Source: Terriglobia bacterium
GTDB taxonomy: Bacteria; Acidobacteriota; Terriglobia; Bryobacterales; UBA6623
DNA length: 64,000 nt
NCBI GenBank assembly: GCA_009838515.1
Contig: VXRL01000057.1
Span: forward strand, 1 to 64,000
Direction of reading: 5' to 3'
Under the pieces are notes generated by a model that ran no database searches, had not been told where the DNA came from, and saw only the letters and a list, made by a program, of their open reading frames with translations. Position 1 is the stretch's first letter, and the number at the start of each line of letters is the position of its first letter. The position numbers and the translations under genes are program-made. Below, one piece after another: positions 14,868 to 62,558 of this stretch.

Positions 14868-15039
14868 GGTAGTCCTCACTTCCGGCGTGCGGGAGTGCTT
14901 GGATTGTACCCCGCTGTCCCGCCGCCGGACGAAAGTGTTTTTGCGCCTCATGCCCGGTCTGCCGGCAACGCTAGTTGCCGCGACGCGGCCTATCCGCAAT
15001 GGGGAAAGGTGCCGCGGCATGTCAAGAGGGGCGGAATGC

Positions 15040-15095
15040 TTGCCTCCCAAATGGGGGGTGTCTTATACTTGACAGCAATGAAGGCGTTTCATTGC
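15040..15095 (+). promoter_or_regulatory. Promoter and operator of the FitA/VapC module
   Basis: A sigma-70-like promoter is visible: TTGCCT at 15040-15045, an 18-base spacer, and TATACT at 15064-15069. A perfect 8-bp inverted repeat follows immediately (GCAATGAA 15075-15082, TTCATTGC 15088-15095, 5-base spacer), covering the expected transcription start. RHH antitoxins such as FitA bind such palindromes with the toxin to repress their operon, so this is a strong operator candidate. Confidence 0.65.
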
Positions 15096-17757: not shown

Positions 17758-19143
17758 TCACATCACCTTGGGAATGGAATTCCACCAGGCGGTCAGAGCA
17801 CTCTTGAGCCTCGCTACTACCTCTGCATTCCGTTCAGCTACGTTATCGGTCTCGTCGAATCCTGCACTGAAGTCGTAGAGTTCCAGCCGCCTGCCATCGG
17901 GTTCCATCAGCAGCTTCCAGTTTCCGTCACGCACGGCCAAAGCCGGGCTGCGGTCCGATTCCAATCCGGGACGCAGGTAGCTCGGCTCACGCCCGTACTC
18001 CCAGAAGATCGGCTGGTCCCGCAGAGGCTCTTCGCCCCGAAATGCCCGACTCATGTCAATCCCGTCGAACTTCGCGTCCGGCAGGGGGATCCCGGCCAAG
18101 CGACAGAATGTCGGGAACAGGTCCACCGCAGTGACTACAGTCTTTGAGTTCGTCGCGGCGGCGGGCGCCTGGCCCGACCAACGGACGATCAGCGGCTCGC
18201 GAATGCCACCTTCGTAAAGGCTCCACTTGCGTCCGCGCAGCCCGTTCGTCTTGCCCGGCGGATCGTATCCCTCGTCGTAGTACCGCTTCCAGGCAGTGGG
18301 GCCATTGTCACTGGCCAGCACCAAGATGGTGTCGTCATCCAAGTCAAGAGCGTCAATCTCACCGAAGAGCCTCCCTAGTTGGCGGTCCATCTCGTCCATC
18401 ACCGCAAAGTACTGCTGCCTGTACGGATTCGAGGCAAACTGCGCGAACTTGGCGAGGAGTTCCGGCTTAGGAAAGAAGCGGTCGTGGACATCGTTGAGCC
18501 AGACATGGAGATAAAACGAACGGTCTTTGTTCCTGCGGATGAAGTCGATCGCACGGTCCACGTAAATCTCGGTCATCTCGTGCTTGGGCACATCGCGGAT
18601 AGTGCCTTGGCCGAGCTGCTTGCTCTGCTCCGACAAGCCACCGGGAGGTAGGATGCGATCCCCGAGCCCCTCGAACGACACAAGTGACTCATCGAAGCCG
18701 TAGGCCTGCGGTAACGGCGCGTCGTCGACATCGCGCCCACCACCCATGTGCCACTTCCCGAAGTGTGCGGTAGCGTAGCCCGCATCTTGAAACGTTCGGG
18801 CGATTACGGGAACGGTCGGATCCAAGAAGTCCCGCATGCCACGCTCCCGGTTGCGCTCGCGGGAGTTGAGATACGAGTGAATCAGGTGCCGCGCGGGGTA
18901 TTGGCCCGTGCTGATTCCGACCCTTGATGGCGAGCAGATCGGCGAGGCAACGTAGAACTGCTCGAATCTGATGCCCTCCGCAGCTAATCGATCAATATTG
19001 GGGGTCGCGACGTCAGTGTTGCCGTAGCAACTCAGGTCGCCGTACCCCATATCGTCAATGAAGACGAAGACGAAGTTGGGCCGGTCCGCAGCGAAAGCGG
19101 CAAGGCCGCTGCCAACCAGGGCGAGAAGAATCCGATACAACAT
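17758..19143 (-). CDS. Secreted arylsulfatase-type sulfatase
   Basis: A 461-residue enzyme with a signal peptide (MLYRILLALVGSGLAAFA). The core starts RPNFVFVFIDDMGYGDLSCYG, with the metal-binding DD, and has the formylglycine motif C-S-P-S-R at Cys70. FGKWHMGGGRD carries the Lys-x-His pair and VLASDNGPTAWK the Asp-Asn pair that complete the Ca/sulfate site. All key residues look intact. This organisation is common in bacterial exo-sulfatases for carrageenan, fucoidan or glycosaminoglycan fragments; I cannot choose among them. It is the first gene of a two-gene operon with an M19 dipeptidase. Confidence 0.92.
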   Translation of the reverse strand: MLYRILLALVGSGLAAFAADRPNFVFVFIDDMGYGDLSCYGNTDVATPNIDRLAAEGIRFEQFYVASPICSPSRVGISTGQYPARHLIHSYLNSRERNRERGMRDFLDPTVPVIARTFQDAGYATAHFGKWHMGGGRDVDDAPLPQAYGFDESLVSFEGLGDRILPPGGLSEQSKQLGQGTIRDVPKHEMTEIYVDRAIDFIRRNKDRSFYLHVWLNDVHDRFFPKPELLAKFAQFASNPYRQQYFAVMDEMDRQLGRLFGEIDALDLDDDTILVLASDNGPTAWKRYYDEGYDPPGKTNGLRGRKWSLYEGGIREPLIVRWSGQAPAAATNSKTVVTAVDLFPTFCRLAGIPLPDAKFDGIDMSRAFRGEEPLRDQPIFWEYGREPSYLRPGLESDRSPALAVRDGNWKLLMEPDGRRLELYDFSAGFDETDNVAERNAEVVARLKSALTAWWNSIPKVM

Positions 19144-26776: not shown

Positions 26777-28144
26777 CTATTGGGGCGGCATGTTCGCGCC
26801 AACCGACCTGAGATACTCGAACAGCATCCGTTCTAGCTCCGCGGCCTTGTCCGGCATCTCAGCTCCAAGATCGGTCTGCTCGCCTACATCGCTCGCGAGA
26901 TTGAACAAGTGCTGTTCTGCCGGCTGTCGCGGACTTTCGTACTTGAGCAAGAGCTTGAAATCCCCACGCCGGATCGCGGATGCCGGAAAGGCGCGGTGCA
27001 GCGGTCTGTGGAAGACCAAGCCGTCGAAGCCCCGCTCGACCCGCCCCGTCCCTCGATTCTGCAATACCTTGCGGAAGCTACCGCCATCGACTTCGGCGGG
27101 CAGCCGCTCTTGCCCTCCGGCTAGGTCGTACAGCGTCGGCAAGAGATCGTACCCCGTGACAGGAACGTGCGAGACCGAGTCTGGCTCCACACCCGGGCCG
27201 GCCACCAAGAACGGCACGCGAATTCCTCCCTCGTAGAGCGTGTGCTTCGCGCCGTTCAGCGGGCGGTTCGGCGCCGACAGCGAATTCAGAGCCCCAGGAA
27301 TCGTGCCGCGCCCACCGTTGTCAGCCATGAAGATCACATACGTGCTGTCACTGATGCCGAGCCGCTCCAAGGCATCTAGGAGCCGGCCAATCGATTCATC
27401 CAAGTCGTAGAGCATGCCCGCGAAAGCATGGGTTACCGCGCGGTCTGGGGAGCCCTTGGTTTCGAACATGTCCAGCGACTCCTGGCGGGTTTGCACTTGG
27501 AGATGCGTCGCATAGTGGCTGATCTGGACGTAGAAGGGGTGCCTGCGGATGTGGCGCTCGATGAAATCGACCGCCCGGCCAGTAATGGCAAAGGCGAGCT
27601 TCGGGTCGGCCTTGACCACGCTGCGCCCGCGCTCCTCCATCGGAGCTGGCATGCCGCCGGTGCGGTTCGTTGTCCAGCCGTCGCTCTCATCAAAGCCGAC
27701 CTCGTCGGGACTGGCTCCCATGTCCGAGCCGAACTTTCCAAAGTGCGCCGTGCGGTAGTTCGGGTCGGCTTGCTTGAGAGCTTGCGGGAGAGTCAGTCGT
27801 CCATTCCAGTCGAATTCCGACTTGAACTCCGTGCCGCGCTGACGCGCCGGCGTCATGCCGCAGAATATGCTGCGCCGGGTAGGGGTGCATAGCGGTGCCG
27901 GCGAATAGCCGCTTGTGAAGCGCATCCCTCGTTCGGCCAGTCGCGCCATATTGGGCGTGGCGAGATAGGACGAAGCAGCTTCACGAACCTCAGGGTCCAT
28001 GGCAAATGAGAGCTGGCTCCAGCCTTGGTCGTCGCTCAATATGAAGACGAAGTTAGGCCGATCCTGTCCTGCGGCAAGCGCCGCCGTCATGCTGGCGAGC
28101 AACGCAAGTAGAGTGAGCCTCTTGCCGGATTGTTTGGTTGGCAT
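26777..28144 (-). CDS. Secreted sulfatase with C-T-P-T-R motif
   Basis: About 455 residues from the ATG at 28144. The signal peptide ends near LAAG (residues 1-26). The metal-binding core RPNFVFILSDDQGWSQL is followed by the formylglycine motif C-T-P-T-R at Cys86. Most relatives have Ser at the fourth position; Thr keeps the C-x-P-x-R recognition pattern. FGKFGSDMG replaces the usual GKWHxG, so the Lys-x-His element is altered (Lys kept, no His), while FMADNGGRGT keeps the Asp-Asn pair. It should still be a sulfatase, but that replaced His deserves attention. The position next to an Nramp-like transporter gene, 110 bp upstream on the same strand, may be coincidental. Confidence 0.88.
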   Translation of the reverse strand: MPTKQSGKRLTLLALLASMTAALAAGQDRPNFVFILSDDQGWSQLSFAMDPEVREAASSYLATPNMARLAERGMRFTSGYSPAPLCTPTRRSIFCGMTPARQRGTEFKSEFDWNGRLTLPQALKQADPNYRTAHFGKFGSDMGASPDEVGFDESDGWTTNRTGGMPAPMEERGRSVVKADPKLAFAITGRAVDFIERHIRRHPFYVQISHYATHLQVQTRQESLDMFETKGSPDRAVTHAFAGMLYDLDESIGRLLDALERLGISDSTYVIFMADNGGRGTIPGALNSLSAPNRPLNGAKHTLYEGGIRVPFLVAGPGVEPDSVSHVPVTGYDLLPTLYDLAGGQERLPAEVDGGSFRKVLQNRGTGRVERGFDGLVFHRPLHRAFPASAIRRGDFKLLLKYESPRQPAEQHLFNLASDVGEQTDLGAEMPDKAAELERMLFEYLRSVGANMPPQ

Positions 28145-28254
28145 CGTACTCGCGTCATCGTACCAGCCGGCCCACGGCATATAGGATCGCCGCTCATCGC
28201 AGGGCTACGGGTCCGTCAGCTGCCCTCTCAAGCGTCAGGCGCTGCTTGGACGAC

Positions 28255-29748
28255 TCAGCCGCCGAATGCGCTGGAAAGCTGCTGGTAGAAGGCGATCCCA
28301 GAAATGCCCAAGAAGAAGACGAAGCAGGCAACTTGGCTCACTTGCATGATCATCGGCGGACGGAGCGGCTCCGGCAACAACTTGCGATTGACGTAAAGCG
28401 CGTGCAGAGCGGTCGCGCTCAATCCGAGGTTGCGCAACGCGCCAGTGACGATCGCGAGGAACAGCGGGTCTGGCGTGAGCCGCAAGGCGATCAAGCCCCA
28501 CAGAAAATACAGCCCCATGATCGTGTAGTAAATCAACTTCACTTGGTTGCCGCGCAGGTGGCGCACGTGCCTGCTACCCGTCCAGATCACCTCGGTCCAG
28601 CGCCGCACGATGTTGTCGATGTCGGAAAGCTGGCCGGGCGACAGGACAATAAACCCGCACAGCAGCGTCAGAAACCAGAACACCTCGCCAGAGCTGTCAG
28701 CTATGCCCCGAGCGGTCATCGCCGCCGCCGCGTGCCCTTCCACCTGGGCACCAGCGATGTACTCGAGGGAGAGCATTGAAGGCAGTGCCATTCCGATCAG
28801 GCAGGCCCCGCACCAGATGCCCAACTGGTCCCTGAGCAGGTGGCGCATCCATCCCCTCCAGCGCTTGAGTGACTCCTCGCTGATAGGAAAGACCTTGCCC
28901 ACATGGGCGAGTTCTACCTTCTTGCCACCGATCATGCTGGGAATCGCGCCCACCAGCGGCCCCATGCCCCAGCCCTTGTCCCTGGCGTAGTTCGAGAAGC
29001 TCGTGTTTGTGATTCCGCCCATGCCGGCGATAGCCGCAAACGCGGCCAGCGTCGGCCAGTCAATCTCCTGCTCCGGCATCGAGCCGACCTTGAGGAATCC
29101 GGTGAACACAGCCACCCACGTATCCCAGCTCACCAAGAACAAGCACACGAAGCCTAGGTAGCCCAGGACGAGGAAGATCTTCGTCACCATGACTTTCTCG
29201 ACGGTGTTGTAGACCTTGCCGCCGAAGATCAGCGGCAAGAACGCGGCCGAGAACACGCCGTACGACACCCAGCGCAGGATGTCGGCATGCTCTTCGCCCG
29301 GCAGATCGCCTAGAAAGGCTGCCACCAGCGGCACCGCCGCGTTGGATGCCAGGTATGGCCAAATCCCGCCCAAGTCCAGCAGCAGGTAGAAGAAAACCCA
29401 GAATTTCGGGCCGGGGTTGGAACGGAAGAATCCGACCAAGATCGGCTCGCCGGTGTAGAGCGTGTAGCGCATCATGCACAGGTTGTGGCTGACCTGCAGC
29501 AAGATACTGATGGCGGCGATCCACATCAACTGGCCGCCGTAGCGAGCCGTGACGATCGGGCCGAAGAGCCACTCGCCACCGCCGATCGCGCTGCCTGCCA
29601 GCAAGAGGCCCGGGCCGATCAGGAGCCTCCACTGCTTCCAAGTGAACTCCGGGGCCTTCGGCAGATCGGCGCTCTCCCACAGCGGGAAGTGCCGCCCTGC
29701 CCTCGCGCGAACTTCCCCGGAGTCGTCAGCGGGCATGGCGTGAATCAT
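28255..29748 (-). CDS. Nramp-like divalent-metal transporter
   Basis: A 497-residue membrane protein with about eleven hydrophobic helices. The first helix, LIGPGLLLAGSAIGGGEWLFGP, resembles the GPG...DPGN helix of Nramp/MntH, but the metal-binding Asp-Pro-Gly-Asn is replaced by a Gly-Gly-Glu-Trp arrangement. A later ITNTSFSNYARDKGWGMG segment is typical of this outlying Nramp-related group. True Nramps move Mn2+ or Fe2+ with protons; the substrate of this branch is not established. The start could be the second Met (MPADDSGEV), four codons in. Confidence 0.75.
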   Translation of the reverse strand: MIHAMPADDSGEVRARAGRHFPLWESADLPKAPEFTWKQWRLLIGPGLLLAGSAIGGGEWLFGPIVTARYGGQLMWIAAISILLQVSHNLCMMRYTLYTGEPILVGFFRSNPGPKFWVFFYLLLDLGGIWPYLASNAAVPLVAAFLGDLPGEEHADILRWVSYGVFSAAFLPLIFGGKVYNTVEKVMVTKIFLVLGYLGFVCLFLVSWDTWVAVFTGFLKVGSMPEQEIDWPTLAAFAAIAGMGGITNTSFSNYARDKGWGMGPLVGAIPSMIGGKKVELAHVGKVFPISEESLKRWRGWMRHLLRDQLGIWCGACLIGMALPSMLSLEYIAGAQVEGHAAAAMTARGIADSSGEVFWFLTLLCGFIVLSPGQLSDIDNIVRRWTEVIWTGSRHVRHLRGNQVKLIYYTIMGLYFLWGLIALRLTPDPLFLAIVTGALRNLGLSATALHALYVNRKLLPEPLRPPMIMQVSQVACFVFFLGISGIAFYQQLSSAFGG

Positions 29749-48032: not shown

Positions 48033-48764
48033 ATGTCAGGTCCTGAAATCATCCAGGTCATTCAAGACGCGCTGCACCGCCAAGGCAGCAATCCTAGCCG
48101 GTTCGCGAAGGAGAACGGATTCTCCGTCAATGCCATCCGCTACATCCTCGAGGGTCGGCCGCCGAGCAGCCGTCGCTTGGCAGAAGTCTGTGAAGCGCTC
48201 GGCTTGGAGTTCTACGTGGGCCCTCCCCGCGTTCCCGAAGGCAAGCGCATCGACGTGAGAGAGCTGGCCAACGAGTTGGACCGGCTAGCCATCGAAGCGC
48301 GGCGGATCGCGGACGATGTCGAGGGAGCGCCCGCCGAGATCGACCAGAACGTCCTGTACGTGTCAGCGCCTCGCTACGAGGTTCAGGCGGCCGCCGGTAG
48401 CGGCGAGGAAGTGCTGGATGAGAGTGTCAAGGGGTACCTAGGCTTCAACAAGACCTGGCTGCGCGAGCGGAACCTGTCTGCCAGCAACCTGGCGGTCATC
48501 GAAGTGCGCGGCGACTCGATGGAGCCCACCCTGCACGACGGAGACAGCGTCCTGCTGGACATGCGATCGCCGCAACTGAAGGACGGAGGGATCTACACGC
48601 TTCGACGAGGTGGCGAATTGCTTGTCAAACGGTTGCGCCGCCAAGGCGCGAGCTGGCTCATCGTCAGCGACAATCTCTCCTACGCAGTCGAGAGCTTGGA
48701 CGAGAACGTCGACGTGCTAGGCCGCGTGGTGTGGCTCGGCCGGACGTTTGCCGACGGCGCCTGA
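48033..48764 (+). CDS. HTH repressor with S24 peptidase domain (LexA/CI-like)
   Basis: A 243-residue protein. Residues 1-60 form an XRE-type helix-turn-helix (SRFAKENGFSVNAIRYILEG, then RRLAEVCEALGLEFYVG). Residues about 110-240 form the S24/LexA-like autoproteolysis domain. The catalytic Ser162 is in RGDSMEPTLHDGD and the Lys199 in ELLVKRLRR. An Ala121-Gly122 pair (AAAGSG) is a plausible self-cleavage site. It could be a stress- or damage-responsive repressor, or a relic of a phage. No phage genes are near, and the window has no recA or SOS gene. Direct repeats upstream suggest autoregulation. Confidence 0.87.
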   Translation: MSGPEIIQVIQDALHRQGSNPSRFAKENGFSVNAIRYILEGRPPSSRRLAEVCEALGLEFYVGPPRVPEGKRIDVRELANELDRLAIEARRIADDVEGAPAEIDQNVLYVSAPRYEVQAAAGSGEEVLDESVKGYLGFNKTWLRERNLSASNLAVIEVRGDSMEPTLHDGDSVLLDMRSPQLKDGGIYTLRRGGELLVKRLRRQGASWLIVSDNLSYAVESLDENVDVLGRVVWLGRTFADGA

Positions 48765-48770
48765 AGCGAC

Positions 48771-50093
48771 CTACCGGTCCACTGGCTGGCCGCCGATGAA
48801 GACCGTGTGGATGTCGCGCAGGTTCCGGATGTTCCCCAAGGGGTTGCTGTTTAGCAGGATCATGTCGGCCACCTTGCCTTCGGCCAGCGTCCCAAAGTCG
48901 CGGTCGATTCCGAGCGCCTCCGACGCGTTCTTCGAGAACGACACGATCACCTGCATGGGCGTCAGGCCCGCCTCGACCATCAGCTCTGCTTCCCAGTGCT
49001 CGAAGTAGCCGGCAAACCGGGCGGGAGGCCCAGTGTCGGTGCCGAAACCGATCTTGACACCCGCATCGGAGAGGGTCTTGAGGTTGCGCATCGCCATGCG
49101 GAAGTTCTCCCGGTTGATCTCTAGTTCCGGATCCGTCTTCTGTGTGTCTCTAAAGTTGGTGCGCAGTTCGTCCACCAAGCCAGCCTCTACGCTTCGGGTG
49201 AAGAACGGATCGGCGAGCCAGTCAGGTGCGTCCGCGTACACATACGTGGACTGTTCCCGTGTCAGGGTGGGCGAGTACGTGACGCCCCGGGCCAGCAGTC
49301 TGCGAATCAGCCCGCGGTCCACATCGGCATCGCGCACGCTGTGCACGACCATGTCCAAGCCGGCTTCGACCAACAGCTTGGCGTCGGCAAGTTCGTACAG
49401 GTGCGCGACCGCTAGCAGCCCCCGCTCGTGGGCTTGGTCGATGATGGCCCGGCATACCGACGGTTTGAGCTTTTCGAACGTGCCGTGGTGGCTATCGACC
49501 CACATCTTCACCAACTCGGCACCTTTTTCCGCCAACCGATCCACGTGCTGCCGCGCCGCGGCTGGTGTTGCGACTTCAAGCGCCAAGCCCTTCACGCCCG
49601 GTACGTGGGTGGGGTAGCCGTTTGGAGTCGTAAAGCCATGCAGGGCGGTGCGGACTCGGGCCAATCCGGGCAGAGTGCCTCGGTTCACGTCGTTGCGCAC
49701 ACCTAGGACGGCATCCATGTCCGTCCCGAGGCTGGTAGTCGTCGTCACACCGTAGGAGGCGTAGATCCGCAGGTTGTCGATGACGTTTTCCCGAGAGTAG
49801 TGCTCTTGGGACTGCGCCAAGCCCTTGGTCAGCCCGACATGGCCGTGCAAGTTGATAATGCCCGGAACCAAGGTCTTTCCCCGCCCATCGATCACCCGCG
49901 GGTCGCCCGAAATCTGGTACGTTCCGCCCTCGCCGATGACCGCGATGCGTCCCCCAAGCACAAGCACCGTGGCGTTCAGCGTCGGCGGGCCTCCGCTTCC
50001 GTCGACCAAGGTGACGTTTTCAATGACCAGCGGGCGCTGGGCCGTCAGGACCAGCGGCAACAGCAAGGCCAGAATTCCAACGCGAAGCCGCAT
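48771..50093 (-). CDS. Secreted amidohydrolase
   Basis: A 440-residue protein with a signal peptide (MRLRVGILALLLPLVLTAQ). The amidohydrolase barrel has the N-terminal metal motif NLHGHVGLT (H-x-H), a Lys in ELVKMWVDSHHG that may be carboxylated, His in VAHLYELADA and VHSVRDADV, and the terminal Asp in FGTDTGPPARF. It belongs to the imidazolonepropionase-like group often annotated so without evidence. It should hydrolyse amide or cyclic bonds outside the cytoplasm; the substrate is unknown. It converges on the S24 repressor gene with 6 bp between them. Confidence 0.85.
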   Translation of the reverse strand: MRLRVGILALLLPLVLTAQRPLVIENVTLVDGSGGPPTLNATVLVLGGRIAVIGEGGTYQISGDPRVIDGRGKTLVPGIINLHGHVGLTKGLAQSQEHYSRENVIDNLRIYASYGVTTTTSLGTDMDAVLGVRNDVNRGTLPGLARVRTALHGFTTPNGYPTHVPGVKGLALEVATPAAARQHVDRLAEKGAELVKMWVDSHHGTFEKLKPSVCRAIIDQAHERGLLAVAHLYELADAKLLVEAGLDMVVHSVRDADVDRGLIRRLLARGVTYSPTLTREQSTYVYADAPDWLADPFFTRSVEAGLVDELRTNFRDTQKTDPELEINRENFRMAMRNLKTLSDAGVKIGFGTDTGPPARFAGYFEHWEAELMVEAGLTPMQVIVSFSKNASEALGIDRDFGTLAEGKVADMILLNSNPLGNIRNLRDIHTVFIGGQPVDR

Positions 50094-50374: not shown

Positions 50375-51190
50375 ATGCTAATTGACACGAACAAGTGCGT
50401 TGCCTGCGCAAACTGCGTGCCTGTCTGCCCGATGGGCGCCATCTACGTAGACCCGGACATAGGCCGCGCTCGGATCAACCAAGACGAGTGCGTCGAATGC
50501 GGCACCTGCTTCAGAGGCATGAGCCAAGAGCACCTCAATCCCACGATGGTGCGCACGGTGCGCAAGCTCGCGCGACTGTTCCGTTTCCGCTTCGAGCCCG
50601 AGCCTGACGTCTGCCCCACGGCTGCTTTCGTGATGAACGAATTGGAGATGCCGCGCCTGGTCCGGCAGGTCTTTTCCGACCCGGTCGTGGAACACAAGTC
50701 GACCGGCATCAAGGGGCGCGGAACGGAAGAGGTCAAGACCAACGACGTCAGTCCGCGAGTCGGCGTGGGCGAGGTCGGGTATACCATCGAGTTCGGCCGG
50801 CCGGGCGTAGGGGTCCGCTTCCGCGACATCCAGGAAATGACGCTCGAGCTGGCGCGCATGGGGGTGCAGTTCGAGGCCAAGAACCCGATCAGCCACCTGA
50901 TGACCGACAAGAGCACCGGCCAGATCCGAGCTGACATCCTTGACGAGAAGATCCTCTCGGCCATTGTCGAGATCAAGACGACACTCGATCAGGTGAAAGC
51001 GGTACTAGGCACGGTGGAGGAGGTCAACCGTCGGATCGATACCGTGACAGCCGTTGGAATCTCCACCCGCTGTGACGACAGCGGCGAAGAGACGCGGCTG
51101 GCTCAGGTCTTGGAAGACTTGGGCTACGGTGCCGAGCGTGCCAAGACGAACATGGGCCTTGGCAGGCTGACCAACGCGGAGGCCGCATGA
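50375..51190 (+). CDS. Ferredoxin-like two-cluster protein of unknown function
   Basis: A 271-residue protein. The N-terminus holds a classical [4Fe-4S] motif CVACANCVPVCP (Cys8, 11, 14, 18), then a second set CVECGTC (Cys39, 42, 45) whose fourth ligand, Cys80 in DVCPTAAF, lies 34 residues further on. The intervening basic segment (FRGMSQEHLNPTMVRTVRKL) is an unusual insertion. The remaining 190 residues contain GRGTEEVKTNDVSPRVGVGE and FGRPGVGVRFRDIQEMTLE, features I associate with an uncharacterised family found mainly in anaerobes, but I cannot verify this. The stop overlaps the next gene (ATGA). Probably an electron-transfer subunit. Confidence 0.75.
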   Translation: MLIDTNKCVACANCVPVCPMGAIYVDPDIGRARINQDECVECGTCFRGMSQEHLNPTMVRTVRKLARLFRFRFEPEPDVCPTAAFVMNELEMPRLVRQVFSDPVVEHKSTGIKGRGTEEVKTNDVSPRVGVGEVGYTIEFGRPGVGVRFRDIQEMTLELARMGVQFEAKNPISHLMTDKSTGQIRADILDEKILSAIVEIKTTLDQVKAVLGTVEEVNRRIDTVTAVGISTRCDDSGEETRLAQVLEDLGYGAERAKTNMGLGRLTNAEAA

Positions 51191-51861
51191 CCAATACGCT
51201 CCACCGCTACGGCAAGTCCGAGTCCTTCCGAGACGACTTCATCTTGTTTTGCATTCCTTCTCCCGGCAAGAACGACGAGGGTGCCGTGGAGAAGCAGAAG
51301 GCTTTCTTGCGCATCTGCGCCCGCCACAACCCGGTCAACATGGGCAACGGAAATCGAGGAAGCTTCAAGCCTGAGCGGCACCTCGACCCGCGTTCCCACT
51401 GGAATCGTGACCTCTCCCCGGATTGGGAGGGAGTGATCGAGGGCGTCAACAAGCCCGGTACGGCAGCAGCAGTGTTCGATTCCGAGGAGAACGCCAGGTT
51501 ATGCCTGCAAGAGGTCGTGGATGCCGACCTAGGCCTGTCGGTAAACCTCAGCACCTCAGTGAGCGGCGCCAAGGAAGTAGCGCACTGCTGCGGCATCCCC
51601 CGTCACAGCGTCGAGTACTCCCTGGGCTTCACGGACCCGCACGATCACCTGCCGAACAGCCAGGTTCTGGAACTGGCCACGATGTGCGGCCACGGCATGG
51701 TGTCGTTCAACATGGCCCGCAAGATGCTTGACATGGTGCGGGAAGGGCGTCGCACGCCGGACCAAGCGGTAACCACCCTGGCCCGCTTCTGTCCGTGCGG
51801 AGTCTACAACCCTGCTCGGGCGCGCAGGCTGTTGGAAGAAGCCCGCACCAAAGCGACATAG
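51187..51861 (+). CDS. Cysteine-motif partner of the ferredoxin-like protein, unknown function
   Basis: A 224-residue soluble protein starting on the ATGA that ends the preceding gene. I do not recognise a named family. Cysteines cluster in well-formed motifs: VAHCCGIPRHSVEYSLGF (Cys134, Cys135), LATMCGHGMVSFNMARKM (Cys167) and RFCPCGVYNPARARRLLE (Cys202, Cys204). These look like metal- or cluster-binding elements. The middle has NMGNGNRGSFKPERHLDP and ADLGLSVNLSTSVSG. The tight coupling to a two-cluster ferredoxin-like protein suggests that the two act together in one redox reaction. No signal peptide, so cytoplasmic. Confidence 0.7.
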   Translation: MTNTLHRYGKSESFRDDFILFCIPSPGKNDEGAVEKQKAFLRICARHNPVNMGNGNRGSFKPERHLDPRSHWNRDLSPDWEGVIEGVNKPGTAAAVFDSEENARLCLQEVVDADLGLSVNLSTSVSGAKEVAHCCGIPRHSVEYSLGFTDPHDHLPNSQVLELATMCGHGMVSFNMARKMLDMVREGRRTPDQAVTTLARFCPCGVYNPARARRLLEEARTKAT

Positions 51862-52378: not shown

Positions 52379-54130
52379 ATGCAACGCTCGCTGTCGGTTC
52401 TCCTGATCTGTGCCTCGTTCGCCTTCGCGGCCGAGTACGAGCTCGGGCCAGACTCGAAGGTCCAACCCGGCGTCCCCAAGGGAACCGTCACCAAACACAG
52501 CTGGACCAGCGCGGGGACGATCTTTCCCGGTACGGTGCGCGACTACTGGGTCTACGTGCCCGCGCAGTACGATGCTTCGAAGCCCGCGGCGGTGATGGTC
52601 TTCCAAGACGGCGTCAAATGGGCGTCAAACGTGGGGAACGGCTGGCTCACTCCGATCGTGTTCGACAACTTGATTGCGAAAGGCGACATGCCGGTGACGA
52701 TCGGGATCTTCGTCAACCCCGGCATGCTGCCGGCTCGAAGCCCCGGCCTTAAGCCTCGGCTCAACCGCAACTATGAGTACGCCTCGACAAGCGGCGACTA
52801 CGCCAGGTTCATCGTGGAAGAGATTCTGCCCGAGGTTGCCAGGGACTACAACCTCACCGACGACCCGAACCTTCGCGGGATCGGCGGCTCGAGCGGGGGC
52901 GGGCAGGCGTCGTTCACCGCGGCCTGGAACCGCCCGGACGTGTTTCGACGTGTGTTGAGCTTCATCGGAAGCTACGTGAACATACGCGGCGCCGACATCT
53001 ACCAGAGCCGGGTTCGCAAGATGGAGCCCAAGCCGCTGCGAGTCTTCCTGCAAGACGGCTCCAACGATCTCGATTTGTTCTCGGGCTCGTTTTGGCTGGC
53101 AAATCAATCGCTCCGGAGCGCACTGCACTGGGCCGGCTACGACTACAAGTGGGTTGCCGGCGAGGAGGGGCACAACAAAGTCCACGGCCTGCCGATCTTG
53201 CCCGACGCCTTGCGCTGGCTCTGGCGCGATTGGGAAACCCCGATCGAGCCTTCGCGTGAGAAAACCTTCAAGCGCCCGCCGTCGATACTCGATTTCCTTG
53301 AACCCGAGCACGACTGGGAGCTCGTCAGCGAGGGGCATACGTTCCTAGAGGGGCCGGCTGTGGCGCCCAACGGGGACGTCTATTTCTCGGACGTTCGCGA
53401 GAGCAAGATCTTCCGCGTTGACGCCAAGACCAGCGAGGTCAGCCTATTCAAAGACAACACGGGCTGGACGAACGGGCTCATGTTCGGCCCTGACGGGCGG
53501 CTCTACACCTGTCGCCGCAAGACCGAGCAGATTGTCGCGATCGACGTCGAGACGATGGAAGAAGAGGTGATCGCCGAGGGCGCTCAGCCCAATGACATCG
53601 TGATCAACGCCAAGGGTGACCTGTACTTCTCGAGCCCCTGGACGAAGCGCGTCTGGTTCGTGCCCAAGGGCGGCGAGGCGCGGATCGTGTTCGAGGATCC
53701 CAATTCGGGCTTCTTGAACGGGTTGATGCTCTCGCCCGATCAGTCGATGCTGATGGTGAACGACTCGCGCAAGAAGTTTGTGTGGTCGTTCCAGATCGAG
53801 CCCGACGGCTCGCTGGCGTACGGCGAAGAGTTCTTTCGGCTGGAGACCTGGGATAAGAACAGCCAGTCGCGCGCGGACGGCATGACGATCGCCGACGACG
53901 GGCACTTGTTCGTGGCGACGGATCTTGGGGTGCAGGTCTGTAACGACAAAGGGCCCGTGGTGGGGATTATTCGGAAGCCGACGAAGGAGTTCGTTTCAAA
54001 CGTCGTCTTCGCCGGACCGGAGCTCAAGACTCTCTACGCGACCGCGTCGACGAAGCTTTTCCGCCGGAAGCTTCAAGCGAGCGGGGTGCGGCATTGGGAG
54101 CCGTTCCAGCCGCCTCGGCCTGGGCTGTAG
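52379..54130 (+). CDS. Secreted esterase fused to an SMP-30-type propeller
   Basis: A 583-residue protein with a signal peptide (MQRSLSVLLICASFAFA). Residues about 20-300 form an alpha/beta hydrolase of the Esterase-D/feruloyl-esterase type. AVMVFQDGVKWAS is the first strand, IGGSSGGGQASFTAAW holds the nucleophile Ser, VFLQDGSNDLD the acid region, and EEGHNKVHGLP the His. Residues about 310-575 form an SMP-30/gluconolactonase propeller: EGPAVAPNGDVYFSD, TNGLMFGPDGRLYTC, QPNDIVINAKGDLYF and RADGMTIADDGHLF. The two activities on one chain suggest coupled deacylation and lactone hydrolysis. A -10-like TACAAT is close to the ATG. The sulfatase gene starts 4 bp after its stop. Confidence 0.85.
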   Translation: MQRSLSVLLICASFAFAAEYELGPDSKVQPGVPKGTVTKHSWTSAGTIFPGTVRDYWVYVPAQYDASKPAAVMVFQDGVKWASNVGNGWLTPIVFDNLIAKGDMPVTIGIFVNPGMLPARSPGLKPRLNRNYEYASTSGDYARFIVEEILPEVARDYNLTDDPNLRGIGGSSGGGQASFTAAWNRPDVFRRVLSFIGSYVNIRGADIYQSRVRKMEPKPLRVFLQDGSNDLDLFSGSFWLANQSLRSALHWAGYDYKWVAGEEGHNKVHGLPILPDALRWLWRDWETPIEPSREKTFKRPPSILDFLEPEHDWELVSEGHTFLEGPAVAPNGDVYFSDVRESKIFRVDAKTSEVSLFKDNTGWTNGLMFGPDGRLYTCRRKTEQIVAIDVETMEEEVIAEGAQPNDIVINAKGDLYFSSPWTKRVWFVPKGGEARIVFEDPNSGFLNGLMLSPDQSMLMVNDSRKKFVWSFQIEPDGSLAYGEEFFRLETWDKNSQSRADGMTIADDGHLFVATDLGVQVCNDKGPVVGIIRKPTKEFVSNVVFAGPELKTLYATASTKLFRRKLQASGVRHWEPFQPPRPGL

Positions 54131-54134
54131 AGCA

Positions 54135-55418
54135 GTGGCCCATCGAGTCCTCATCGCAACGCTGCTGCTCGCCGCGCCTGTCCTTCCGGTGAGCCCCAAC
54201 ATCATCCTGATCCTTGTCGACGACCTCGGCTACGAGACCCTGGGCTCGTACGGCGGAGCCTCTTACGACACCCCCAGCCTCGATCGCCTTGCTGAGTCGG
54301 GTCTGCGCTTCACCCACGCCTACGCCATGCCGCTGTGCTCGCCGTCGCGGGTGAAGCTGATGACCGGTCGCTACAACGCTCGTAACTACACCAAGTGGGG
54401 AGTCCTGCCCAAAGACGAGCTCACCTTCGCCAACATCTTGCAGGATGCCGGGTATCGCACCCACGTCGCCGGCAAGTGGCAACTCTGGGGGCACGACCTC
54501 GTGTGGAACCGCGGCGGCGGCTGTTGCCTGCATCAAGGCCAAACCCCAGGCGACGCCGGCTTCGACGACTACTTAGTCTGGTACCTCGGCGACAAGGGAA
54601 GCCGCTACGCGGACCCCTCGCTGTCGAGCCGCAACGACGACGGCAAGACCCGCCAAGGCAGGTACGGTCCCGACCTATTGAACGACTTCGTGCTCGAAGC
54701 AATGCAGAGTGATCAGCCGTTCTTCATCTACTACTCGATGGTCCTCGTCCACGCGCCCTTCGTCCCGACACCTGATAGCGACGGCTGGCGTGGCGACCGC
54801 CACGCCGAAGACAAAGCACACTTCGCAGCCATGGTCGCCTACGTCGACAAGATGGTCGGAAAGACGCTCGCCAAGCTCGACCAGCTCGGAATTCGAGACG
54901 AGACGTTGGTACTGCTAACCGGCGACAACGGAACGCCCGGCGCGATCACCAGCGTGATGCAAGACGGAACCAAGATCCGCGGCGGCAAGGGGAAGACGAT
55001 CGACCATGGCTCGCATGTGCCTTTCATCGCCTCGTGGCCGGGAGTCATTGAGCCCGGTGTTTCAAACGCTCTGGTCGACTTCACCGACGTGCTGCCGACG
55101 CTCGCCGACGCAGCCGACGCCAAGCTCCCGAGCGACCGGATCTTCGACGGCCACAGTCTGCTTCCGGTCTTTCGCGGCGAAGCGGAACACGAGCGTGAGT
55201 GGATCTTCACGGACTACCGCGCGCAGTTTCCGAACATTACCGAGAGACGCTACGTCCACAACCGTCGCTACAAGCTCTACGATGACGGCCGGTTCTTCGA
55301 TTGGGAGAACGACATCCTCGAGCAGAACCCGCTTGCTGACGCCGAGATCACAGCCGAGGCCGCCGCGATCCGGGAGAGCTTCCGCGACGCATTGAATGGG
55401 AATTATATACGAAAATAA
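54135..55418 (+). CDS. Secreted sulfatase with 3' end inside a TnpB element
   Basis: About 427 residues from a GTG at 54135; the longer frame overlaps the esterase gene. The signal peptide is residues 1-19 (VAHRVLIATLLLAAPVLPV). The core NIILILVDDLGYETLGSYGG carries the DD, and the formylglycine motif C-S-P-S-R starts at Cys68. AGKWQLWGHD replaces the usual GKWHxG, so the Lys is kept but not the His. LTGDNGTPGAI holds the Asp-Asn pair. The last codons (NYIRK, stop) are read from the left terminal repeat of the mobile element at 55398. The original C-terminus may have been slightly longer, but the catalytic domain is complete. It forms an operon with the preceding gene. Confidence 0.88.
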   Translation: MAHRVLIATLLLAAPVLPVSPNIILILVDDLGYETLGSYGGASYDTPSLDRLAESGLRFTHAYAMPLCSPSRVKLMTGRYNARNYTKWGVLPKDELTFANILQDAGYRTHVAGKWQLWGHDLVWNRGGGCCLHQGQTPGDAGFDDYLVWYLGDKGSRYADPSLSSRNDDGKTRQGRYGPDLLNDFVLEAMQSDQPFFIYYSMVLVHAPFVPTPDSDGWRGDRHAEDKAHFAAMVAYVDKMVGKTLAKLDQLGIRDETLVLLTGDNGTPGAITSVMQDGTKIRGGKGKTIDHGSHVPFIASWPGVIEPGVSNALVDFTDVLPTLADAADAKLPSDRIFDGHSLLPVFRGEAEHEREWIFTDYRAQFPNITERRYVHNRRYKLYDDGRFFDWENDILEQNPLADAEITAEAAAIRESFRDALNGNYIRK

Positions 55419-56678
55419 CACGCGCAAAAATATGCTATTATACAAATTGGTGATCCAATATACCACCTATTCCGTGCGGTGCTCCCTCTCGCCAGCGGGC
55501 TACCGGCACCTGGACAACATCCTTGTCCGCTTGAACTGGCTCTACAACCAGGCGCTGGAGGAGCGCAAGACGGCCTACGCCGAGCGCAAGGAGACGCTGC
55601 GCCTGTACGACCAGCACAAGTGGCTGACGGGGTTGCGTGCTCGCAACGAGCAGGGCCTCGGCGAGATCGCGCTAGGTCCGGCGCGCGGCATGCTGAAGCG
55701 CTTGGACGAGGCCTTCCAGTCGTTCTTCCGGCGCGTCAAGGCCGGCCAAGCCCCGGGGTTTCCGCGCTTCCGGCCGCTCAGCCGTTGCGTCACGATCGAC
55801 TTGACGAAGATTAGTGGCGGCACTGTCAAGCCGCGGGGCGGCCACTACGAACTGCAGGTGAAAGGCTTTCCTCGCATCCGGCTGTACGGTTCGCGCGAGT
55901 TGCCGGACGCGGTGGCGAAGTCCGTCCGGCTGACCAAGCGCGGGCGGCACTGGGAAGCCTCGCTGGTGTATGCGGTCGAGCGGGCAGCCCTGCCCGCCAG
56001 CGTCAAGGCGGTGGGGATCGATCTGGGCGTGCGCAAGCGCATGACGCTGTCCAACGGCAAGCGCTACCAGCGGGCAACCCGTGACCGGAGGCGCAAGCGC
56101 CGGCTGCAGCGCGCGGTCGCACGCTGCCGGAAGGGCAGCCAGAGGCGGCGGAAACGAGTGCGGGCGCTGGCGCGCTTCCAACGTCGGGAGTTCGTGCGGG
56201 AGCGGAACGCCTGCCATCGGGCTACAACCGAGATCATCCGCGACTACGGATTGGTCGCGGTGGAGCAGCTGCAGGTCGCGAAGATGACTCGCTCGGCGCG
56301 AGGAACGGAGGAACAACCGGGCAGGAACGTCGCGGCGAAGGCCGGGCTCAACCGGGAGATACTGTCACAGAACTGGTCGCTTCTACGCAGACAACTCGAG
56401 CAAAAGGCAGAATGGGCTGGGCGAGAGTACGTGGAGGTTGATCCCAGGTACACTTCACAGGATTGCAGCAGGTGCCACGCGCGGAACAAACCGCGAGCAG
56501 CGGAGACGTACCGTTGCCGCGCCTGCGGACTGGTGGAGGATCGCGACGTGAATGCCGCGATCAACATCTTGGCGGCCGGGGTTATTGCCGCCGGAGCGTC
56601 AACGTGGGCCGTTGGGCCGTGCGTCGCTCCAGAATCGTATGCGAGGGCTGCATGACGTTACTCTCGTATATAAGCCCC
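55398..56678 (+). mobile_element. TnpB-only (IS200/IS605-type) element with terminal inverted repeats
   Basis: The tnpB gene is bracketed by a 22-base imperfect inverted repeat. The left copy starts GGGAATTATATACGA and ends AAATAAC (55398-55419). The right copy at 56657-56678 starts GTTACTCTCGTATATAA and ends GCCCC; 18 of 22 bases match when it is reversed. The element has no tnpA, so it would need a transposase in trans. It sits exactly at the end of the sulfatase gene, whose stop codon it supplies. Subterminal hairpins of the classical IS605 kind were not obvious. The ends are read by eye; a tool could move them by a few bases. Confidence 0.7.
55432..56655 (+). CDS. tnpB: TnpB, RNA-guided endonuclease of an IS200/IS605-type element
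   Basis: A 407-residue TnpB from the ATG at 55432; the ATG at 55396 lies outside the element and is rejected. RuvC catalytic acids are all present: Asp197 in VGIDLGVRK, Glu279 in VAVEQLQV and Asp372 in EDRDVNAAINIL. A zinc ribbon holds Cys345, Cys348, Cys362 and Cys365 (CSRC and CRAC). The N-terminal half is very basic and carries the RNA-binding region. TnpB proteins use an omega-RNA from the 3' end of the gene and the right end of the element to cut DNA at TAM-flanked targets. This one looks fully intact and could be active. Confidence 0.92.
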   Translation: MLLYKLVIQYTTYSVRCSLSPAGYRHLDNILVRLNWLYNQALEERKTAYAERKETLRLYDQHKWLTGLRARNEQGLGEIALGPARGMLKRLDEAFQSFFRRVKAGQAPGFPRFRPLSRCVTIDLTKISGGTVKPRGGHYELQVKGFPRIRLYGSRELPDAVAKSVRLTKRGRHWEASLVYAVERAALPASVKAVGIDLGVRKRMTLSNGKRYQRATRDRRRKRRLQRAVARCRKGSQRRRKRVRALARFQRREFVRERNACHRATTEIIRDYGLVAVEQLQVAKMTRSARGTEEQPGRNVAAKAGLNREILSQNWSLLRRQLEQKAEWAGREYVEVDPRYTSQDCSRCHARNKPRAAETYRCRACGLVEDRDVNAAINILAAGVIAAGASTWAVGPCVAPESYARAA

Positions 56679-56927
56679 CAAACGAGCACTTGAGCAAACG
56701 ATAGTCCGGAGGGCGCGCTAGACCCTTTGGATCGAGCGCTCGGTCCCTGTTCATAGGGGTTCGGGCTGTGGCAGGGATGCGCACGGTCAGCCGGATGGCT
56801 GTCATCTCTGCAGTCGTACGGCCTCCTCGTCGAGACCGACCTTGGGCGCTTTGGTCGGCAGCTAGTGTAAGCTCGGTGGATCTCGATATCCCAACATCTT
56901 TCCGCTGAGCGCCTATGATGGTCATTG

Positions 56928-58460
56928 ATGTCAGAGGTCCACGGTGAAAAAAGCAGTTTCAAACTGTCGCCTGTAATCAAGCCAAGTTCCCCTGAAACAA
57001 GAGTTGCGGCAGCTATCATGGCACTGCTCGGAACAGCCGTCTTCTGCCCGCAGACCGCTTTCGCAGAAGGAGACGCCCGCCCCAACATACTTTTCATGAT
57101 TTCAGACGATGTCTCCTGGGCTCATGCAGGAGCCTACGGTGACAAGGTCGTCAAGACATCCGCATTCGACCGAATTGCAGCAAACGGTGTGCTTTTTACT
57201 AATGCCTTTTGCTCGGTTCCATCCTGTAGCCCGTCACGCTCTGCGATCCTTACTGGTCAGGAATTCTGGCGACTTGGGGAGGCTGCCAATTTGCGTGGCA
57301 CTCTCCACAAGGATCTATACAGCGTGTATCCGTTCATGCTTGAGGAGGCCGGATACCATGTGGGCAGTCACTCCAAAGTATGGTCGCCGGGAAGCTTAGA
57401 AGCGGGAGGATGGCCGCACAATCCGGCCGGACCAGCGACAGACAATTTCCAGAGTTTTCTCAAACACTTGCCGGACGACAAACCGTTTTGCTTCTGGCAA
57501 GGTTCGCGCGATGCGCATCGACCTTTTGAAGCGGGATCAGGAGCCCGATCAGGCATGGATGTGGAGGACGTTGAGGTGCCTCCTTTTCTCCCGGACGTGC
57601 CTATAGTCCGTGAGGATATCCTCGACTACTACTTCGAAGTGCAGCGGTTCGATCAATTGATCGAGACCAACTTGAAACTGCTTGAGGAAACGGGCAGAGC
57701 TGAAAATACAATCGTCGTAGTGACCAGTGACAACGGACTACCGTTTCCGCGTGGAAAGGCTGATATGTACGATTACGGTGCGCGAATGCCGCTCGCGATC
57801 AGCTGGCCGAAGGGTGTGCGTGGCGGAAGAGTGATTCATGATTTTACGAATCTCGTTGATCTTGCGCCCACATTTCTTGAGGCCGTGGGCTTGAAACCTC
57901 ATCCCGACATGACGGGCAAGAGCCTCCTGCCTTTGCTGACCTCGAGTAAACAGGGCTGGGTAGATCCCGATCGCGACGCCACTTACTACGGCCGCGAGGC
58001 GCATTCGGTTTATGCTCGTATCCGTGAAAACAGAAGGGGCTATCCTTCGCGTGCTATTCGGACCAAAGATTTTCTCTATATTCGTAATTTCGCTCCGGAT
58101 CGCTGGCCGGTAGGAAGGGAATTCAAGGACGTCGATCCGAGCCCGACAAGAACGTACATGCTTGAACGCAAAGACGAGATACCGCGGCTGCACGAGCTGT
58201 CATTTGGCAAGCGGCCCGCTGAGGAACTCTATGATCTCAAGAGGGACCCGGCACAAATGGTGAACGTTGCTGCTCAGGCTAGGTATAAGGGTCACAAAGA
58301 AGCATTGTCGGCTCGATTGGAAAAGTACTTAAAGCAAACGAACGACCCACGTATGCGAAGCGACGGTCAAGTATTTGACCACTACCCCATATGGCGAGCC
58401 GTTCGCGGATCTGATCCACAAGCATATGAGCGCCTAGACCGTGGAGCAAGAGATCAATAG
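56928..58460 (+). CDS. Secreted sulfatase, heparan N-sulfatase-like, atypical composition
   Basis: About 510 residues from the ATG at 56928. The N-terminus is a long leader with a hydrophobic stretch (VAAAIMALLGTAVFCPQTAFA) ending in a signal-peptidase-like site. RPNILFMISDDVSWAHAGAYG carries the DD, and the C-S-P-S-R motif starts at Cys100. The remaining features are VGSHSKVWSPG, VVTSDNGLPFPRGKADMYD (Asp-Asn and Lys) and EELYDLKRDPAQM. The DDVSWAHAGAYGDKVVKTS opening is like heparan/sulfoglucosamine sulfohydrolases. The gene is visibly more AT-rich than its neighbours and uses different codons, so it was probably acquired from another organism. It follows the TnpB element by about 250 bp. 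Confidence 0.87.
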   Translation: MSEVHGEKSSFKLSPVIKPSSPETRVAAAIMALLGTAVFCPQTAFAEGDARPNILFMISDDVSWAHAGAYGDKVVKTSAFDRIAANGVLFTNAFCSVPSCSPSRSAILTGQEFWRLGEAANLRGTLHKDLYSVYPFMLEEAGYHVGSHSKVWSPGSLEAGGWPHNPAGPATDNFQSFLKHLPDDKPFCFWQGSRDAHRPFEAGSGARSGMDVEDVEVPPFLPDVPIVREDILDYYFEVQRFDQLIETNLKLLEETGRAENTIVVVTSDNGLPFPRGKADMYDYGARMPLAISWPKGVRGGRVIHDFTNLVDLAPTFLEAVGLKPHPDMTGKSLLPLLTSSKQGWVDPDRDATYYGREAHSVYARIRENRRGYPSRAIRTKDFLYIRNFAPDRWPVGREFKDVDPSPTRTYMLERKDEIPRLHELSFGKRPAEELYDLKRDPAQMVNVAAQARYKGHKEALSARLEKYLKQTNDPRMRSDGQVFDHYPIWRAVRGSDPQAYERLDRGARDQ

Positions 58461-60890: not shown

Positions 60891-62558
60891 CTATTCCGGG
60901 TAGAGAATCATCTCTCCGGAAGACGCCACTCGTTCCCAGGCGCCCTTGAACTCGGCGACCAGCTCAGGCTGTTCCGCGCTTACGTCTGTGGTCTCGCCTG
61001 GATCATCGATCATGTTGTACAGCTGCCATCCCGGCGCTGCTCCTCTGGGACCATGTGGCGACTTCAACCGCGAGTACTTCCAGTTGTCCTTGACCAAAGC
61101 CACTTGCCCGTCGTGTTCCCACAGGAAGACGGTGTCGGGCCGGTTCAGGTCTGCGCCCTCTTCGGTCAGCAGCGGGGCGAACGAGGCGCCTTCAAGCTCG
61201 TGCACCGGCCGGCCTTGGTAGGTTGTCCCAGGGTGCTCCACGCCCGCGAGGTCGAGAAGAGTCGCTGACAGGTCGCGGACAGTGAGGAAGGCGCTCTCTG
61301 TCCAGCCTTTGCGGATGACGCTGGAATGGTTGACGAAGGCAGCCGCGCGAATGCCGCCGGATGCGACTGTTCCTTTGTGCAAGTGGTATGGCCCCATCCC
61401 AGCTTGCGCCCAGCCAGGACCGTACGTCACGAACGAGTCGGCCCGGCCGAAGTTTTCTAGGTCGTTGTTGATTCTCTCCGGTCTGCGAGGCGCTCTGCGC
61501 GCAAAGTCTAGATCGCTGGAAGCGGCGCCGTTGTCGGACATGAAGACGATGACCGTGTTATCCAGCTCGCCGGTTTCATCAAGAAGCTCAACAATGCGTC
61601 CGACGTTGTAGTCAAGGTTTTCGACCATCGACGCATAGATCTCCATGGCCCTCGAGTACTTCGAGCGCTCCTCGTCGCTGAGGCTATTCCAGGTCCGTGC
61701 GAAGGGTTCGGCGGGCTTGTCCCTGGCTCGCTCCGAGATGACGCCTACCTCGACCGCTCCAGCGATGCGTTGCTTCCTCAGCTCGTCGTAACCTCCGTCG
61801 TACTTGCCCTCGTATTTGTCCAGCCAATCCTCGGGAACCTGCAAGGGCCAGTGCGGGCTCGTGTAGGCCATATAGCTAAACCAGGGTGCGGGGTTTTCTT
61901 TGCTTTCTTCGAGAAACGAGAGAAACTTGTCGGTGTAGAAATCCGTTGAGTAGAACTCGTTGGGCATGGATTCGAGAGTTTCACCGTCCTCCCAGTAACG
62001 CTCTGCCGGAACGTTCGCAAAGTGGACAGCGGAACCGAACTTGAGGCCAAAGGATCGATGGAAGCCCTGAGCTGCCGGACTCAGCTCCGGCGTCTCACCG
62101 AGGTGCCACTTGCCCACCATGTAGGTGCGGTAGCCGGCGTCTTGAAGAAGCTTCGGAATCGGAACGATGCGATCGGTCAGATGCCCCTCATAACCGGGTT
62201 TTCCTCGGCGAGCTTCGACCAGCGGATCGCCGTTGAACCGAGCTATCGTAACCAGCTGCGTCCCCATGCCCGCTAAGTGCGGATAGGTGCCGGAGATGAG
62301 AGCGGTACGAGTTGGAGCGCAGCTGGGGTGCACATGAAAGTTCGTCAGCCGCACGCCGCCAAAGGCAAGCTCGTCTAGGTGCGGCGTCCGAATCTCGCCG
62401 CCAAACGAACCAAGGTCGGTGTAGCCCATGTCGTCGGCGACGATCAGCAGGATGTTGGGCCGGCGAGCCTCGGTGCTGTCCGCCGTATGGTCTTGACGGC
62501 ATCCCGCTAGCACGGCGAGGCATAGGACTGCATGAATGTGAAATCGCGGGACTCGCAT
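60891..62558 (-). CDS. Lipoprotein arylsulfatase
   Basis: A 555-residue enzyme. The N-terminus (MRVPRFHIHAVLCLAVLAGC) ends in a perfect lipobox LAGC at Cys20, so it is lipid-anchored, unlike the other sulfatases here. RPNILLIVADDMGYTDLGSFGGEI carries the metal-binding DD, and the C-A-P-T-R formylglycine motif starts at Cys80. VGKWHLGETP holds the Lys-x-His pair and FMSDNGAASSD the Asp-Asn pair. LAGMGTQ and the HLHKGTVASGGIR region place it near the AtsA-like arylsulfatase group. All catalytic residues look intact. A fragment of an RraA-type gene lies 9 bp upstream on the same strand. Confidence 0.9.
   Translation of the reverse strand: MRVPRFHIHAVLCLAVLAGCRQDHTADSTEARRPNILLIVADDMGYTDLGSFGGEIRTPHLDELAFGGVRLTNFHVHPSCAPTRTALISGTYPHLAGMGTQLVTIARFNGDPLVEARRGKPGYEGHLTDRIVPIPKLLQDAGYRTYMVGKWHLGETPELSPAAQGFHRSFGLKFGSAVHFANVPAERYWEDGETLESMPNEFYSTDFYTDKFLSFLEESKENPAPWFSYMAYTSPHWPLQVPEDWLDKYEGKYDGGYDELRKQRIAGAVEVGVISERARDKPAEPFARTWNSLSDEERSKYSRAMEIYASMVENLDYNVGRIVELLDETGELDNTVIVFMSDNGAASSDLDFARRAPRRPERINNDLENFGRADSFVTYGPGWAQAGMGPYHLHKGTVASGGIRAAAFVNHSSVIRKGWTESAFLTVRDLSATLLDLAGVEHPGTTYQGRPVHELEGASFAPLLTEEGADLNRPDTVFLWEHDGQVALVKDNWKYSRLKSPHGPRGAAPGWQLYNMIDDPGETTDVSAEQPELVAEFKGAWERVASSGEMILYPE

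Follow-up and report, generated by a model that had tools for sequence, protein, structure and literature searches.

The window analyzed here, the whole 64,000-nucleotide stretch of DNA from Terriglobia bacterium, contains two overlapping genes, designated as p1 and p2. Both open reading frames, together with their ATGA overlap, are located where the original prediction had placed them (Table 1). The p1 protein consists of an N-terminal 2[4Fe-4S] ferredoxin domain followed by a C-terminal ACT/PII-like domain of no named family, and p2 is modeled with a ferredoxin-like fold in its N-terminal half and a helical Cys domain after it. The genome that contains the window has a single copy of each gene.

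Table 1. Features of the p1-p2 locus and its surroundings, with positions in the window
Feature	Position	Strand	Basis
Sulfatase-like genes of the window	1078-2493, 13350-15050, 17758-19143, 26777-28180, 53925-55418, 56925-58460, 60891-62558		
NRAMP-like transporter ORF	28255-29748	-	judged from sequence
S24 peptidase (LexA/CI-like repressor) gene	48033-48764	+	
Divergent amidohydrolase gene (PF01979)	48771..50093	-	Pfam; homologues adjoin p2 elsewhere
p1 gene (271 aa)	50375..51190	+	ORF and alignment
p1 first cluster motif, C8-x2-C11-x2-C14-x3-C18	50396..50428	+	conserved in 81/81
p1 second cluster, ligands 1-3 (C39, C42, C45)	50489..50509	+	conserved in 81/81
p1 34-residue insertion, C45 to C80	50510..50611	+	sequence; missing in the distant homologue L120
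p1 C80, second-cluster ligand 4	50612..50614	+	conserved in 81/81; superposes within clostridial ferredoxin
p1 signature FSDP-x3-H-x2-TG-x2-GRGTEEVKTND, residues 100-124	50672..50746	+	invariant except P103
p1 ACT/PII-like domain, about residues 126-231	50750..51067	+	fold search
p1 RAKTNxGLGR motif, residues 255-264	51137..51166	+	K257, N259, G261 and G263 invariant
ATGA start/stop overlap of p1 and p2	51187..51190	+	sequence; 4-base overlap in 52/80 complete pairs outside the window
p2 gene (224 aa), partner of no named family	51187..51861	+	ORF and alignment; no Pfam, NCBIfam or PDB match
p2 ferredoxin-like alpha/beta domain, about residues 15-127	51229..51567	+	model and fold search, Z up to 7.3
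p2 H140	51604..51606	+	invariant, 81/81
p2 C167-G-H169-G-M motif	51685..51699	+	invariant; C167 and H169 in 81/81
p2 C202-x-C204-G motif	51790..51801	+	invariant; both Cys in 81/81
TnpB/OrfB-like ORF, IS200/IS605 family	55396-56655	+	

The first iron-sulfur motif of p1, CVACANCVPVCP, lies near the N-terminus and carries C8, C11, C14, and C18, and the second, CVECGTC, provides C39, C42, and C45. Exactly 34 residues then precede C80-P81, in which C80 is the fourth ligand of the second cluster; the description of two motifs, the second of them split by 34 residues, was exact. All eight ferredoxin Cys are identical in the 81 proteins compared. Pfam matched p1 with Fer4 models alone, which cover residues 1-55, and p1 belongs to the 2[4Fe-4S] ferredoxins (Fer4_10 / Fer4_7) by a Pfam score above the cut-off, the eight Cys, and the fold. 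The NCBIfam matches were of ferredoxin type and all sub-threshold, and a PDB search with p1 returned ferredoxins. A likeness to glycerate kinase in the PDB profile search was weak (E = 0.03) and was set aside. In an AlphaFold model of p1 (pLDDT 83), residues 1-88 superpose on the 2[4Fe-4S] ferredoxin of Clostridium acidurici (1fca) with a Z of 7.4 and an rmsd of 1.4 over 54 residues. This superposition indicates that the bicluster domain is complete and that the insertion is, as modeled, an excursion from an otherwise normal fold. Thus, p1 shares the fold and all eight ligands with clostridial ferredoxins but differs from them in the 34-residue insertion before the last ligand and in the attached 190-residue conserved domain. 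The p1 protein of the most distant pair, L120, does not have the insertion and reads ...CCECGACIRNSTFNCPANAI... in this region.

The invariant residues of p1, with L120 included, are FSD, H107, TG, GRGTEEVKTND, E139, GRP, E167, N170, P171, K257, N259, G261, and G263. Within the signature at residues 100-124, only P103 varies, in three Gemmatimonadota members (alignments A3 and A5). Residues 110-116, which form the most conserved loop, had a pLDDT below 50 in the model of p1 alone. A fold search related the C-terminal domain to ACT and PII proteins with a Z of 6-7 and an rmsd of about 3, an arrangement that is common and does not imply function, and an NCBIfam profile search with this domain gave no useful match.

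Exactly three Cys of p2 (C167, C202, and C204) are invariant among the 81 proteins, along with H140 and H169. The original prediction had named three Cys motifs in this protein: CGHG holds, as the invariant motif C167-GHGM; CPCG holds in the form C-x-C-G, which alone is invariant; and CC (C134 and C135) does not, the two residues being kept in 11 and 28 of the 81 proteins, respectively. The invariant residues of p2, again with L120 included, are T2, L5, H6, R7, G9, D17, H140, S141, CGHGM, R188, R189, CxCG, and N208. The N-terminus and residues 142-152 are the least confident parts of the single-chain model.

No family in Pfam, NCBIfam, or PDB was matched by p2. A Pfam search with 38 p2 sequences and a limit of E = 10 gave, as its best match, a DEP domain at 0.008, which we took as chance, and PDB profile searches with the pair gave no useful match. 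Foldseek and VIA searches with both models returned nothing above a Z of 8.0, and the matched folds were common arrangements. Both the C-terminal domain of p1 and the N-terminal half of p2 are predicted to adopt a ferredoxin-like alpha/beta fold. This fold resembles that of ACT/PII-like domains, which have a beta-alpha-beta-beta-alpha-beta arrangement and bind small molecules, but no sequence similarity to them was detected, Z stayed below 8, and the invariant charged loops of p1 and p2 are not among the defining features of the ACT/PII families. A comparison of the two ferredoxin-like domains with hhalign gave no sign of homology between them (probability 0.2%). As had been anticipated, neither protein falls into a named family beyond the ferredoxin domain, and Pfam, NCBIfam, and PDB sequence and profile searches revealed no clear match to a characterized enzyme. 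The working label "undescribed redox system" is thus fair and survives the libraries used; its redox part would follow from the ferredoxin domain. Literature searches on the sequence motif and on the combination of ACT, 4Fe-4S, and hydroxyaspartate found nothing.

The plan of a ferredoxin protein with a Cys-bearing subunit is a known kind of two-component system. HdrBC- and LutAB-type pairs consist of a 2[4Fe-4S] ferredoxin protein and a CCG-domain protein, and Lut acts in organic-acid oxidation. The p1-p2 pair is similar to these in joining a ferredoxin-type protein to a Cys-rich partner, and the role of Lut in organic-acid oxidation belongs to a comparable context, but only three Cys of p2 are invariant, and the CCG domain (PF02754) was not matched in p2 or its 37 homologues.

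Both genes are present and adjacent in 83 of 86 loci, and p1 lies beside p2 in all 30 best loci. In addition to the 4-base overlap, an overlap of 29 bases was found in 10 further pairs among the 80 complete ones. The protein distance matrices of p1 and p2 are correlated with an r of 0.957, a value that includes shared species descent, against a maximum of 0.436 in 1000 permutations. The adjacency and this correlation bear out the original view that the two proteins are made together, and support their joint inheritance. The most distant pair found, L120, with identities of 34% and 30%, also has the ATGA overlap; the gene after it (45-488, minus strand) resembles the start of an ATP-grasp protein and ends within the contig, a fragment without a Pfam match. 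Within the window's genus, both genes show a dN of about 0.08-0.13 against a dS of at least 1.2 and are thus under purifying selection. Since p2 is present in 45 of the 100 genomes of a set of relatives (the window's own included), p1 stands beside it, and both are under purifying selection, the pair is real, far above chance.

The three loci without adjacent genes were inspected individually. Two of them (L068 and L085) retain p1 at another place in the genome; the third (L072) lies at the end of a contig, and a search of that genome gave no full p1. The sole resolved split on one contig is that of genome G1303 (L141, 2094-15766), where the genes are about 12 kb apart. Here, p1 is still behind its MFS gene, with an FCD-type regulator nearby, and p2 is among sugar-oxidation genes, with sugar dehydrogenase-cytochrome c and PQQ-type genes. 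In genome G1304, p1 is on a different contig from p2, again behind an MFS-like gene. A Gemmatimonadota locus (L130, 8684-9314), in which p2 is devoid of its middle (residues 52-156) and p1 is fragmentary, was considered as a short form of p2 and rejected; its sequence reads as a decayed copy of the pair.

The pair, or its second gene, occurs at no fewer than 400 genome loci. A search of the genome collection returned 400 relatives of p2, and the hosts of the best 80 of these 400 are mostly Acidobacteriota (Bryobacterales), followed by Bacteroidota (Cyclobacteriaceae and others, including the isolate Pleomorphovibrio marinus) and Gemmatimonadota. The gene for p2 is present in 10 of 10 other genomes of the window's genus, in 7 of 7 sampled from its family, and in roughly one in three of the remaining genomes examined from the order; in a phylum-wide draw it was found in 4 of 396 genomes. 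Further draws, each counting its center genome, yielded 2 of 296 for Bacteroidota, 5 of 298 for Gemmatimonadota, and 5 of 196 for the Pleomorphovibrio family. The homologue search reached Acidobacteriota, Bacteroidota, and Gemmatimonadota, and within these three phyla the named hosts are Bryobacterales, Cyclobacteriaceae, and Gemmatimonadota, which gives no support to the link with anaerobes raised in the original prediction. The pair was not found in viral contigs, and tblastn searches of plasmids with the two proteins of the window and the two of L120 did not find it either. It is a transporter-linked module that occurs in at least three phyla.

Of the 44 divergent loci in which the upstream sequence was long enough, 25 have an MFS transporter gene immediately upstream of the pair on the same strand. 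The gap between this gene and p1 ranges from -11 to +66 and is exactly -4 in nine cases; the MFS member tested is most similar to D-galactonate transporters (the D-galactonate-transporter-like subfamily). Other transporters are found beside or near the pair elsewhere, namely DctM or DctP of the TRAP type (L050-L052, L054, L130, and L136), GntP (L049, L056, and L129), NRAMP-like (L045 and L128), and SSF (L047 and L048). Such an exchange of unrelated transporters beside a constant pair is expected if the pair acts on an imported compound, and the recurrence of such transporters with p1-p2 suggests that the pair is an undescribed enzyme through which an imported organic acid is used. No transporter is immediately beside the pair in the window, which counts against this explanation. 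An NRAMP-like transporter ORF is present in the window about 20 kb from the pair (Table 1).

The pair had been described as standing alone in a region of ordinary metabolism, but the amidohydrolase gene that diverges from it is a recurrent partner. It is a divergent neighbor in the window and its genus, and at 12 divergent loci p2 directly adjoins, on the same strand, an amidohydrolase 38-48% identical to that of the window. This enzyme is probably part of the same functional module as the pair. We dropped the grouping of the window and Bacteroidota amidohydrolases into one subfamily, their identity being only 23-26%. An S24 peptidase gene is located between the enoyl-CoA hydratase and amidohydrolase genes, and its position is conserved across the genus.

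The remaining neighbors are variable and belong to hydroxyacid and sugar-acid metabolism. A Gemmatimonadota operon (L129) comprises a BhcA-like aminotransferase, GntP, an FAD/Fe-S GlcD-type dehydrogenase, p1, and p2, its aminotransferase and GntP families being assigned through the relatives L056 and L049; L056 has a similar gene set. In Bacteroidota (L050, L051, L055, and L136), p1-p2 occurs with a TRAP or MFS transporter, an amidohydrolase, and a threonate-dehydrogenase-like protein. An FMN hydroxyacid oxidase is encoded near the pair in L040-L042, and the neighbors in G1303 include a lactonase, sugar dehydrogenase-cytochrome c, an FAA hydrolase, BKACE, and the FCD-type regulator. In the window, the next gene downstream of the pair encodes an esterase plus SMP-30/gluconolactonase-like protein. 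The downstream oxidase and TRAP genes present in other members of the genus are missing from the window. A few kb downstream of the pair, right behind a sulfatase gene, is a complete TnpB/OrfB-like ORF that may account for the missing oxidase and TRAP genes.

The explanation that we favor, and to which we give an even chance, is that p1-p2 is an obligate two-subunit Fe-S enzyme that helps to catabolize an imported organic acid, with a hydroxy or sugar acid being the most likely substrate. The two proteins would be co-translated, cytoplasmic subunits of one heteromer, in which the 2[4Fe-4S] ferredoxin domain of p1 would pass electrons into or out of an active site located between p1 and p2. This site may be formed by the p1 loops GRGTEEVKTND and RAKTNxG together with T2, H6, R7, D17, H140, R188, and R189 of p2, and C167, C202, and C204, with H169 or H140, would hold a third metal or Fe-S center. 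The conserved loops of low confidence (p1 110-116, the p2 N-terminus, and p2 142-152) could become ordered around the active site in the complex. The neighboring transporter would import the substrate, and the amidohydrolase and the hydroxyacid or sugar-acid enzymes would act before or after p1-p2. Several observations weigh against this explanation: the neighboring enzymes vary by lineage, so that no single pathway emerges; a ferredoxin domain is no requirement for a catabolic enzyme; and ACT/PII-like folds are also widespread among regulators.

A non-redox Fe-S lyase, which we regard as unlikely, would use C167, C202, and C204 of p2 to bind an open-iron [4Fe-4S] Lewis acid. The pair would then dehydrate or isomerize a hydroxy or sugar acid, and the clusters of p1 would be structural or serve cluster repair. 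Open-site [4Fe-4S] dehydratases use three Cys, the number that is invariant in p2, and the neighbors come from sugar-acid and hydroxyacid catabolism, in which dehydration is a typical first step. However, no similarity to any Fe-S dehydratase family was detectable in Pfam, metal binding by p2 is itself putative, and a complete, invariant 2[4Fe-4S] ferredoxin domain is difficult to explain without electron transfer. A specific comparison is provided by the type II Fe-S L-serine dehydratase, which has an SDH alpha domain with three Cys cluster ligands and an ACT-bearing beta part. The three invariant Cys of p2 are in an unrelated motif, and no SDH family was matched in Pfam or NCBIfam.

The ACT/PII-like folds in both p1 and p2, and the translational coupling to an MFS transporter at many loci, would also suit a sensor or regulator of uptake, in which these ferredoxin-like domains would bind a small molecule, the clusters would sense the redox state, and the adjacent transporter would be controlled. 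We consider this improbable. Dozens of charged and Gly residues are invariant at only 30-40% identity, which suggests catalysis, and the transporter family is freely swapped (MFS, TRAP, GntP, SSF, and NRAMP-like), which is unsuited to a dedicated protein-protein regulator. In addition, the fold is common and its Z is below 8.

The closest plan to p1-p2 is found in the homocysteine system of methanogens and Desulfovibrio, in which a NIL-ferredoxin protein is paired with a DUF39/COG1900 protein that bears Cys; L-aspartate semialdehyde sulfurtransferase is composed of MA1821 (DUF39/COG1900) and MA1822 (NIL-ferredoxin), and the NIL domain binds methionine in Methanosarcina (PMC5764234, PMC12068725). 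The resemblance is in architecture only: both consist of a small ferredoxin protein with a second, ligand-binding-type domain and a partner with conserved Cys, but the Cys pattern of p2 is CGHG...CxCG and its gene context is transport and organic-acid catabolism. Related sulfur or cofactor chemistry, in which the p2 Cys would carry a persulfide and p1 would supply electrons, is very improbable, because Pfam detected neither NIL in p1 nor DUF39/COG1900 in p2 (no NIL or DUF39/HcyBio domain in either protein at E up to 1, and none in 38 p2 members at E up to 10), the neighbors serve uptake and catabolism rather than sulfur amino-acid synthesis, and the patchy distribution is unlike that of an essential biosynthetic step.

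If p1-p2 is an enzyme, it would close a gap in how Acidobacteriota, many lineages of which are known mainly through genomes, use organic acids. It is possible, although we lean against it, that the pair founds a new class of three-center iron-sulfur enzymes, composed of a ferredoxin subunit and a catalytic subunit of a new family with three Cys, that opens the catabolism of an abundant hydroxy or sugar acid in Bryobacterales and in other soil and marine bacteria, through a reaction missing from current pathway databases. Despite the at least 400 loci, neither p2 nor the C-terminal domain of p1 has a name in any of the protein-family libraries searched. The small operon unit of transporter, p1, p2, and in some cases amidohydrolase makes the substrate findable through ordinary growth and binding screens.

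The 64 kb of the window also contain at least seven sulfatase-like genes, one confirmed with Pfam and the others assigned from their sequences, which suggests the degradation of sulfated polysaccharides by this MAG.
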